64,000 nucleotides of DNA from Haloarcula rubripromontorii (GTDB lineage: Archaea > Halobacteriota > Halobacteria > Halobacteriales > Haloarculaceae): NCBI RefSeq assembly GCF_001280425.1, contig NZ_LIUF01000006.1, positions 1-64,000 on the forward strand, read 5' to 3'. The notes below the pieces were generated by a model. The model searched no databases. It worked only from the letters and a program-made list of their open reading frames with translations, and was not told where the DNA came from. The position numbers and the translations under genes were made by a program. This document shows positions 34,748-37,920 of this stretch, piece by piece. How positions within the stretch are numbered: the stretch's first letter is position 1; each line of letters opens with the position of its first letter.

Positions 34748-36574
34748 ATGTACGAACACGATGTCATCGTGGTCGGCGCGGGTGGCGCTGGCCTCAGGGC
34801 GGCTATTGCAGCGGACGAAGAGGGTGCAGATGTTGCCCTCGTGACCAAGCTCCATCCGGTTCGGAGCCACACAGGTGCCGCGGAGGGGGGAATCAACGCC
34901 GCACTCCAGGAAGGCGACTCCTGGGACCTGCACGCGTACGACACGATGAAAGGGTCCGACTACCTCGGCGACGCCCCTGCCATCGACACCTTCGCCAAGG
35001 ACGCCCCGGAAGAGGTCATCCAGCTCGAACACTGGGGAATGCCCTTCTCGCGCGAGGACGACGGCCGTGTCTCGCAGCGCCCGTTCGGTGGCCTCTCCTA
35101 TCCGCGGACGACCTACGCCGGTGCCGAGACCGGCCACCACCTGCTGCACACGATGTACGAGCAGGCGGTCAAGCGCGGCATCGAGGTGTACGACGAGTGG
35201 TACGTGACCCAGCTGGCGGTCACCGACCACGACGACCCCGAGGACCGCGTCTGTCACGGCTGTGTCGCCTACGACATCAAGTCCGGCGAGATACAGGGCT
35301 TCCGGGCGAACAACGGCGTCATCCTGGCGACCGGTGGGCTGGGGCAGGCCTTCGACCACACCACCAACGCCGTCGCCAACACCGGCGACGGCTGTGCGAT
35401 GGCCTACCGCGCCGGCGTCCCGATGGAAGACATGGAGATGATCCAGTTCCATCCGACGACGCTGCCGTCGACGGGCGTCCTCATCTCCGAGGGGGTCCGC
35501 GGCGAGGGTGGGATCCTCTACAACGACGACGAGGAGCGGTTCATGTTCGAGCACGGGTACGCCAACAACGAAGGGGAACTGGCCTCCCGTGACGTGGTCG
35601 CCCGTGCCGAACTGACTGAAGTCAACGAGGGTCGCGGCGTCGAGGACGAGTACGTCGACCTCGACATGCGCCACCTCGGCGAGGAGCGCATCCTCGACCG
35701 CCTCGAGAACATCCTCCACCTCGCGGAGGACTTCGAGGGCGTCGATGGCCTCGAAGAGCCGATGCCGGTCAAGCCCGGCCAGCACTACGCCATGGGTGGC
35801 GTCGAGACCGACGAGAACGGCGAGACGTGTATCGACGGCCTCTACGCGGCCGGTGAGACCGCGTGTGTTTCGCTACACGGCGCGAACCGACTCGGGGGGA
35901 ACGCCCTGCCGGAACTGCTCGTGTTCGGTGCCCGCGCTGGCCATCACGCCGCCGGCAAAGACATGAAAACGGCCGAAATCCAGACCGGCCCCTCCGCCAA
36001 AAGCGAGCCTGGCGACGTGGAGCCACCGGTCGAACCCGGCGCAATCGACGCCAGCAGCGGCGATGTTGCCGCAGACGGGGCCGCCGTCGAACCGAAAGCG
36101 GTACTCGAAAGCACCGTGGAGCAGGAGCGCCAGCGCGTCGAAACCCTCATCGAGTCCGACGGCATCAACCACGCCGAAGTCCGCGCGGACGTTCAGGAGA
36201 CGATGACTGACAACGTCAACGTGTTCCGGACCGAAGAAGGGCTTGAGAAGGCCCTTCGTGACCTCCGAGCGGCGCGCAAAGAGTACGAGAACGTCGCCGT
36301 TGAGGACCCGTCCCGGACCTACAACACGGACCTCATCCACACCATCGAAACCCGCAACATCCTCGACGTGGCCGAGGCCATCACGCTCGGCGCGCTCGCC
36401 CGCGAGGAGTTCCGCGGCGCACACTGGCGTGCGGAGCATCAAGAACGCAAAGACGAGGAGTGGATCAAGCACACGATGCTGGCCTGGAACGAGGGACAGC
36501 CGGAGCTGTACTACAAGCCCGTCATCCTCGAAGGCGACGAAGAGACCTACGAACCGAAGGTTCGGTCGTACTGA
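34748..36574 (+). CDS. sdhA: Succinate dehydrogenase flavoprotein subunit
   Basis: The 608-residue flavoprotein begins MYEHDVIVVGAGGAGLRAAI (the dinucleotide-binding fold) and has SHTGAAEGGINAAL, where the FAD-linking His of this family sits. MIQFHPTTLP and QHYAMGGVETDENG form the active site and capping contacts, and NRLGGNALPELLVFGARAG completes the fold. It oxidises succinate to fumarate. A Pro/Glu/Ala-rich low-complexity stretch (about residues 415-450) precedes the C-terminal helical domain. Unlike a compact sdhCDBA operon, sdhA here has its own promoter and is 1.75 kb from sdhB. Confidence 0.94.
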   Translation: MYEHDVIVVGAGGAGLRAAIAADEEGADVALVTKLHPVRSHTGAAEGGINAALQEGDSWDLHAYDTMKGSDYLGDAPAIDTFAKDAPEEVIQLEHWGMPFSREDDGRVSQRPFGGLSYPRTTYAGAETGHHLLHTMYEQAVKRGIEVYDEWYVTQLAVTDHDDPEDRVCHGCVAYDIKSGEIQGFRANNGVILATGGLGQAFDHTTNAVANTGDGCAMAYRAGVPMEDMEMIQFHPTTLPSTGVLISEGVRGEGGILYNDDEERFMFEHGYANNEGELASRDVVARAELTEVNEGRGVEDEYVDLDMRHLGEERILDRLENILHLAEDFEGVDGLEEPMPVKPGQHYAMGGVETDENGETCIDGLYAAGETACVSLHGANRLGGNALPELLVFGARAGHHAAGKDMKTAEIQTGPSAKSEPGDVEPPVEPGAIDASSGDVAADGAAVEPKAVLESTVEQERQRVETLIESDGINHAEVRADVQETMTDNVNVFRTEEGLEKALRDLRAARKEYENVAVEDPSRTYNTDLIHTIETRNILDVAEAITLGALAREEFRGAHWRAEHQERKDEEWIKHTMLAWNEGQPELYYKPVILEGDEETYEPKVRSY

Positions 36575-36934: not shown

Positions 36935-37144
36935 GTCCAATACTGTCGTCGGCAAGCGCAAAATAAGTTGTTGTGAATCCGAAATGAGTTGGCAAGAGAT
37001 AGATAGCGCTCCGACGACAGACGCCACCACTGATGATACGGGACAGCGCCCGGCTAAACGTCACTCGACTGCCGAGAGCGTTGCGTGCGGAAACACCCGG
37101 AATCATCACTTACTTGGTTGTCAGGAACGTATAACTGGTAGCTT

Positions 37145-37246
37145 GGAAGGGTGGCTCAGTGGTAGAGCGCTACCAGCCAACATGCCAGAATCGGTTGGTG
37201 GTTACCCCGCAAAGGGCTCCGCGTGGTTCGACTCCCGCCCCTTCCA
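37145..37246 (+). tRNA. tRNA-like gene of 102 nt, isotype unresolved (intron, type II, or degenerate)
   Basis: A perfect 7-bp acceptor stem GGAAGGG (37145-37151)/CCCTTCC (37239-37245), discriminator A (37246), D arm GCTC-AGTGGTA-GAGC, A box TGGCTCAGTGG and B box GGTTCGACTCC clearly make a tRNA-derived unit. CTACC (37170-37174) can pair with GGTGG (37197-37201) as an anticodon stem, enclosing 22 bases in place of a 7-base loop. A 19-base variable region with CCC...GGG follows. The T stem is imperfect (one mismatch, 8-base loop). The loop lacks U before any convincing anticodon. It could be an intron-bearing tRNA, a type II tRNA, or a decayed copy. Confidence 0.5.
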
Positions 37247-37609
37247 TTTGAGTCGTTCATTGTGAGCAGCTGCACCGGCTTCGGAAGTGCCACGCTGACA
37301 GATCAGTCCTGATAGTTAGGCTGGCCAGAATTACCGCAACACCGTAGGGGCGGCTGGGACCTGCGGGTAACTGTTGGTGTGAGAGCTGGCGGCTCACAGG
37401 AAGTGGAAAGGTAAGGAATGTGGGGGTGGGGGGTGGGGGTGGTGCGGCACCAGTATGGTGCCTATCAGAAGTTATGCGGGGAGCCGTATAAAAAATCACC
37501 GCTGGAATTATCATATCTGATTTCTCGCCAGGCCGTCGGTATCGGACACCACGCCATCGCCGTAGAGAACAACCGGAGAACAACAGCGACGTGTCCCGAT
37601 TTCGATCAG
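37247..37609. other. Intergenic region with G-tracts, hairpin and box A
   Basis: No credible protein gene is present. The stretch holds G-tracts (G5TG6TG5TG2 at 37422-37442), a perfect hairpin GGCACC-AGTAT-GGTGCC (37446-37462), and TATAAAAAA at about 37488-37496. Read on the minus strand, the box A would start transcription near the hairpin, so a small leftward RNA beginning with the hairpin and a C-rich segment is possible. Confidence 0.4.
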
Positions 37610-37834
37610 TTACTTGTGGGTAAACAGCACAACGCTCCCGTCATTGATGGTCGTACAGAGATCCATCTCAAAGTCGAGATTAAGCGACGTGAACTCCTGC
37701 TTGCAGACGACCATATCGTCGAACGGCTCTTCACAGGACGGACAGGCTACAGCCGTCGTGTTCTGGTACGAAGCGATCGCCTCGTTATCCTCGCGCGGCG
37801 TCAACGACGAGCGGAGTTCGTCGAAATCGTCCAT
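37610..37834 (-). CDS. Small conserved haloarchaeal zinc-finger-like protein
   Basis: The 74-residue protein begins MDDFDELRSSLTPREDNEAI at ATG 37834 (an upstream ATG at 37861 adds nine unsupported residues). Cys positions are CPSCEEPFDDMVVC, then LDFEMDLC; the first three can bind zinc. I recall homologues annotated as flagella cluster proteins in haloarchaea, but no archaellum genes are near, so I do not transfer that name. It is divergent from the cobamide genes. Confidence 0.7.
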   Translation of the reverse strand: MDDFDELRSSLTPREDNEAIASYQNTTAVACPSCEEPFDDMVVCKQEFTSLNLDFEMDLCTTINDGSVVLFTHK

Positions 37835-37920
37835 GTTCGGGCAACCGCGGGCGTGCGGCATAAATCATGCGCCGCTCTGGCACCAAGGTATTAAAGTCAA
37901 CTTGTGGTAATACAATTGCA

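Follow-up and report, generated by a model that had tools for sequence, protein, structure and literature searches.

Introduction

Most known RNAs that resemble tRNAs but act outside translation come from bacteria, viruses and eukaryotes. In the bacterial Y RNA YrlA a tRNA-like module is bound by Ro60, and tmRNA contains a tRNA-like acceptor and T part that lacks an anticodon. The haloarchaeal RNA presented here shares with YrlA the mimicry of tRNA by a non-coding RNA, though TROVE/Ro60 is missing from the genome concerned and there is no Rfam Y RNA match. Compared to tmRNA, it is far smaller, and no member of its family has a tag reading frame.

Other tRNA-like genes provide more detailed comparisons. 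The pseudo-tRNA termed tRNA-Other of Bacillus cereus has a Trp anticodon, is poorly charged, lies within longer transcripts and occurs in some Bacilli, according to the available part of the source (PMC3399842). Like it, the haloarchaeal RNA is a tRNA-like gene with a non-decoding role outside translation (predicted in our case); however, as far as that part of the paper goes, the haloarchaeal RNA differs in that it has no anticodon arm, carries a bulge in its T stem and is spread over an archaeal class. The selC* tRNA-Cys and the allo-tRNAs have an unpaired nucleotide, 51a, in the T stem, and for selC* tRNA-Cys this is the same place as the U bulge of the haloarchaeal RNA. These tRNAs combine acceptor/T stems of the 8/4 type with a genuine anticodon, which in some is opal UCA (reviewed in PMC7609411), whereas the stems here are 7/5 and there is no anticodon. 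Finally, halovirus HF2 has an unconventionally folding tRNA-like gene that is read as attP beside an integrase, as given in the available text of PMC8707807. It too is a haloarchaeal tRNA-like gene without a conventional fold, but compared with the viral attachment site described there, the family reported here is mostly chromosomal and conserved.

Results

The gene lies in a 64,000-nucleotide stretch of Haloarcula rubripromontorii DNA, the whole of which is referred to as the window (Table 1). An earlier note, made from the letters of the window, had placed a 102-nt tRNA-like gene at this spot, and the Rfam tRNA family (RF00005) matches exactly the same interval from end to end, with 39.6 bits compared to a gathering score of 29. 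This is the lowest score among the 45 tRNA matches of the genome. RF00005 is the sole match above gathering for this RNA, with none to the other curated families, Y RNA included. No ordinary isotype with a standard intron, which the earlier note had named as the result that would overturn it, emerges from ARAGORN, the one gene finder applied: it leaves the gene uncalled whether introns are allowed or not, and it calls no tmRNA.

The RNA has the body of a tRNA, with a 7-bp acceptor, a D arm, a T loop and the elbow/Levitt contacts. The perfect acceptor stem and intact D arm described earlier can be read directly from the sequence, as can the variable region with its own CCC/GGG mini-hairpin, and the acceptor GGAAGGG, which had been thought unusual, is found in none of the 44 other tRNA matches of the genome. 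Missing is a 5-bp anticodon stem with a 7-nt loop (U33, purine 37). The apparent anticodon stem CTACC/GGTGG does enclose 22 nt, as the earlier note had it, but on folding it extends to a 10-bp stem with a 14-nt loop. The irregularity reported in the T stem is also real, though it is a bulged U and not a mismatch, the stem GCG[U]GG/CCCGC having 5 bp and this one bulge; neither the window RNA nor its relatives have an uninterrupted 5-bp T stem. Folding energy by itself is weak evidence for the significance of the RNA (z = -1.6, with 14 of 200 shuffles equally stable). That it is more than a chance resemblance follows instead from comparison, since a strict pattern matches in 163 of 391 genomes of the class, a lower bound to which a covariance model adds members that the pattern misses (e.g. 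G013 and G122), and the reversed pattern matches in none.

Table 1. Positions of the tRNA-like gene, its parts and associated features in the window
Feature	Position	Strand	Basis
TATA-like box TTACTTGG of putative own promoter	37110..37117	+	sequence; function inferred
tRNA-like RNA, whole gene, 102 nt, 3' CCA unencoded	37145..37246	+	Rfam tRNA, R1 model, homologues
Acceptor stem 5' strand GGAAGGG, pairing perfectly with 37239-37245	37145..37151	+	sequence, fold
D arm GCTC-AGTGGTA-GAGC, G18G19 present	37154..37168	+	sequence, fold, relatives
Hypervariable hairpin replacing the anticodon arm, canonical anticodon loop absent	37169..37202	+	fold, variability in relatives
Variable region, 19 nt, with mini-hairpin CCC/GGG (37206-37216); C48 last	37202..37220	+	fold, relatives
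T arm GCG[U]GG-TTCGACT-CCCGC, bulged U at 37224	37221..37238	+	sequence, fold, relatives
Acceptor stem 3' strand CCCTTCC and discriminator A73	37239..37246	+	sequence, relatives
sdhA (succinate dehydrogenase flavoprotein), commonest upstream neighbour	34748..36574	+	Pfam FAD_binding_2, Succ_DH_flav_C

The strict pattern covers 42 of 86 genera, with mostly one copy per genome. A DNA search of 60 related genomes returned full-length relatives from most of Haloarcula, the genus in which the earlier note had proposed to look for them, and shorter, diverged ones from other families. The covariance model (R1), trained on 19 sequences including the window RNA, gives about 52-102 bits for members (101 for the window RNA) and up to about 44 for ordinary tRNAs. 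At E<=1e-7 it matches in 35 of 294 genomes of the phylum: 24 are from the window's own order, with best matches of 57-101 bits, and the other 11, from different families of the phylum, score 46.6-48.1 bits, only slightly more than the ordinary tRNAs. When one genome per species was scanned (84,980 species), 112 matching stretches were found; the 80 matches listed are haloarchaea by title, plus one metagenome bin labelled only 'Euryarchaeota', and the genera among those listed include Haloarcula, Haloferax, Halobellus, Halogranum, Natrinema, Natrialba, Halorussus and Haladaptatus. As far as searched, the family is apparently confined to Halobacteria.

A viral origin was rejected: viral contigs contain no exact match to the RNA, and phage records hold fragments of 20-24 nt only, never the full RNA. 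The phage and plasmid collections together yielded one full relative, on a Halorientalis plasmid. On this plasmid, pHOS100 of Halorientalis sp. IM1011, a diverged copy of the RNA occupies 7943-8032 of L031 (the same as L088), has an orc1/cdc6 gene nearby and is missing from the PLSDB gene table; a chromosomal copy (L089) is found in genome G103.

The family is apparently undescribed so far. Literature searches covering the main texts of open-licence papers turned up no description of the RNA, though a supplementary sRNA table may contain an entry, and it is likewise absent from the available parts of PMC7609411, PMC12482152, PMC4983044, PMC5852579, PMC6490895, PMC8707807, PMC3399842 and PMC3119063.

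We collected 142 distinct members by means of a regular expression. Its fixed parts are the acceptor, the D-arm frame, the T loop and the T-stem 3' strand, and their invariance is therefore in part built into the collection, whereas no constraint was placed on the bulge, on C48 or on the hairpin. Exactly one bulged nucleotide is present in the 5' strand of the T stem in all 142 (GCG[U]GG in 96, GUGG[C]G in 44 and GUG[U]GG in 2), compared to none of the 44 other tRNAs of the window's genome. It is placed between 51 and 52 in 98 members and between 52 and 53 in 44. C48, the partner of G15, precedes the T stem without exception. The members are 78-132 nt long, and many have a second, extra-arm-like hairpin that is absent in others, for instance L057 and L063. 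At the discriminator N73, 89 members have G, 52 have A and one has C, and it differs even between relatives as close as L064 (A) and L065 (G).

In place of an anticodon arm, 30 of the 142 show an uninterrupted stem whose loop is shorter than 7 nt, a count from a simple stem finder that may have mis-chosen a few where a longer alternative stem exists, and in just one is there an arm with the 5 bp and 7 nt expected of an anticodon arm. The intron-bearing tRNA proposed earlier is refuted by such relatives: with hairpin loops of 3-6 nt, as in CCACC-TTCG-GGTGG, no splicing could produce an anticodon loop of 7 nt. The suggestion of a suppressor-like tRNA fails as well, since it needs an anticodon and there is none here.

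The acceptor stem and the elbow are the strictest part of the RNA. On these sequences its body is stricter than the acceptor of tRNA-Ala(CGC), the sole ordinary stem compared, which reads GGGCTCG in the window's genome and GGGCCGG in G044. Compensatory changes are seen in the acceptor (GGTAGGG/CCCTACC in L091) and in the T stem (C-G to U-A), and the C-bulge group has 8 double-change cells compared to a shuffled mean of 0.9 and a maximum of 4; support for the base pairs beyond constancy is modest. As a result against the proposed fold, the structure that RNAalifold preferred for the Haloarcula group was not the cloverleaf but one pairing the D arm with the hairpin. For the two GGCTTC groups, no shared consensus emerges for the hairpin because it is unalignable.

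In 97 thinned upstream regions there is an AT peak at -30 to -27 and weaker AT at -11/-10, and 75 of the 97 have a pyrimidine at -1. We take such spacing to be that of a haloarchaeal promoter firing at or next to G1, and the combination of a TATA-like box near -29 with the pyrimidine at -1 suggests that transcription starts at or near this nucleotide.

Of the 142 contexts, 56 have sdhA upstream on the strand of the RNA and none has it on the opposite strand; the distances are from 50 nt to about 2.2 kb (often 50-200 nt). It is absent from 61 contexts with at least 2 kb of upstream sequence, and in the C-bulge group a helicase-like neighbour replaces it (one locus scanned, L078). The RNA itself is absent from two genomes of the window's genus, G014 and G020. 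Sixteen genomes were chosen in which the best model match is no better than an ordinary tRNA or a rarer tRNA-like gene (type 2, below); all 16 have sdhA, and none of the 16 stretches contains a family member. G014 and two Halorubrum-like genomes lack the RNA but have otherwise intact sequence after sdhA, which in the Halorubrum-like pair is followed directly by the usual HTH gene. Such clean losses imply that the RNA is dispensable, and from these comparisons the gene looks old, vertically kept and sometimes cleanly lost. The decaying copy from an integrated element that had been considered earlier is refuted: the body is strictly conserved over several haloarchaeal families, the promoter positions are shared and there is synteny with sdhA.

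Discussion

We consider it probable that the window RNA is a member of a non-decoding family of haloarchaeal tRNA-like RNAs, a mimic recognized through its acceptor and elbow by a putative protein. Since the family is conserved over many haloarchaea, the RNA is probably functional, in a task other than making protein. Among the options of the earlier note, the tRNA-like non-coding RNA is supported. Decoding is very unlikely for an RNA that has no anticodon and whose T stem is expected to bind EF-1A poorly; that a bulge in the T stem weakens EF-1A binding is an established principle. The RNA would be transcribed from its own promoter, starting at or a few nucleotides from G1, and its 3' end would be trimmed and CCA added as in a tRNA. 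It is predicted to fold as a tRNA-like L, with the acceptor on the T arm, a D/T-loop elbow and the G15-C48 contact, and the hairpin would be structural filler. The bulge and the missing anticodon would exclude it from EF-1A and the ribosome, while a putative protein would read the conserved acceptor stem and elbow and use the RNA as a tRNA mimic. Recognition of the body by one conserved protein is suggested by the acceptor stem and elbow being the strictest part. The variation of N73 between A and G speaks against a single synthetase and tips the balance somewhat away from amino-acid donation, towards a role in regulation or bound to an enzyme.

No partner protein was found among the candidates considered, TROVE and a TrmB-like HTH protein. 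TROVE/Ro60 was rejected as a general partner because its occurrence does not track that of the RNA: it is present in 6 of 24 carriers and in 2 of 23 non-carriers, and the window's genome (G000) has none. The TrmB-like HTH gene is downstream in 35 of 142 contexts, yet it stays in the two Halorubrum-like genomes that have no RNA. Identity with tRNA-Sec or selC* tRNA-Cys was also discarded, as these need 8/4, 8/5 or 9/4 stems together with a UCA or Cys anticodon, and the RNA has 7/5 with a bulge and no anticodon.

Tentatively, the RNA could be a lineage-specific non-decoding tRNA, retained as many haloarchaeal families evolved, that is charged and used by a dedicated non-ribosomal enzyme, or that regulates one. 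If this were true, an archaeal tRNA would have departed from translation entirely, with the T-stem bulge as a 'keep off EF-1A' mark. The family is found in genetically tractable genera (Haloferax, Haloarcula) and is dispensable in relatives, so that post-decoding roles of tRNA become directly testable. There are also consequences for annotation, as ARAGORN misses the RNA or assigns its relatives doubtful isotypes (tRNA-Arg, Val, Thr or '???').

Staphylococcal tRNA-Gly acts as an amino-acid donor in cell-wall synthesis, and a similar non-ribosomal donor, charged by an anticodon-independent synthetase (seryl-, leucyl- or alanyl-type) and delivering to a non-translational transferase, is conceivable here but doubtful. 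The conserved acceptor stem and intact elbow would suit such a role, as would a bulge that should weaken EF-1A binding and the extra arm that many members have in common with Ser/Leu tRNAs. However, a discriminator that switches between A and G even among close relatives does not fit it, nor do the members without an extra arm, and no transferase was found nearby.

It is unlikely that the RNA is a tRNA-shaped scaffold for a hairpin-borne regulatory sRNA, in which the body would stabilize and the variable hairpin pair with targets. Though the hairpin is stable on folding and most Haloarcula members keep the loop motif TGCCAGA, its sequence and length are hypervariable between genera, which makes a class-wide target for it unlikely.

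The 3' end of MALAT1, with its mascRNA, is made by RNase P/Z cutting at a tRNA-like fold, and the frequent position shortly after sdhA on the same strand would allow a similar cut to set the 3' end of the sdh transcript. We regard this as improbable, because the RNA has a promoter-like profile of its own, sdhA is missing from the 61 contexts mentioned above, and in the window a convergent cupin gene intervenes between the two.

Marginally less probable still is that the gene persists only as an attachment site, through the use of its 3' end by integrases. Extra same-strand copies of the 3' end are found downstream in 25 of 136 contexts and never upstream, and a halovirus tRNA-like gene is interpreted as attP in the available text of PMC8707807. 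Against this, the other 111 contexts have no copy, exact matches are absent from viral contigs, and conservation extends to the 5' half, the acceptor pairing, C48 and the promoter positions. That the gene encodes a decoding tRNA of unusual architecture, or one with an unusual intron, has almost nothing to recommend it, as the cloverleaf body and the Rfam score above gathering are set against loops of less than 7 nt in 30 members and a proper 5-bp/7-nt arm in one of 142.

Several other elements were met at these loci. Tandem units of roughly 90-250 nt end in a copy of the last ~20 nt of the tRNA, and in most of them the T arm is repeated in inverted orientation; they form long nested hairpins with inner motifs like GAACGNAGTGAG. 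Such units occur downstream in 25 of 136 contexts and upstream in none. They are found 72-418 nt 3' of the RNA at L017, L022, L025, L035, L037, L055, L069 and others, and also after tRNA-Arg (L040) and, by eye, near tRNA-Leu in L029, L030, L243 and L247; one tight core pattern for them is absent from the window's genome. They look like small elements targeting tRNA 3' ends. In the window, positions 37418-37470, 3' of the RNA, hold a G-rich run followed by a GGCACC...GGTGCC inverted repeat. This element, also seen at L243, L247 and L029, lies 3' of the RNA in several relatives, is kept in G014 (L243), which has no RNA, and is possibly a separate regulatory or RNA element. Further downstream, 37610-37861 of the reverse strand encodes a small DUF7385 protein (E 4e-35).

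The second, rarer tRNA-like gene (type 2) has the acceptor GAAAGGG or similar, an extra arm and an unbulged T stem, together with a 7-nt loop that lacks U33 and holds no constant anticodon (L096, L097, L100, L117 and L119). A pattern for it matches in 9 of the 391 class genomes, and some genomes have both types together. In 3 of 5 loci read, the type-2 gene lies 4-5 nt before tRNA-Gly(UCC).
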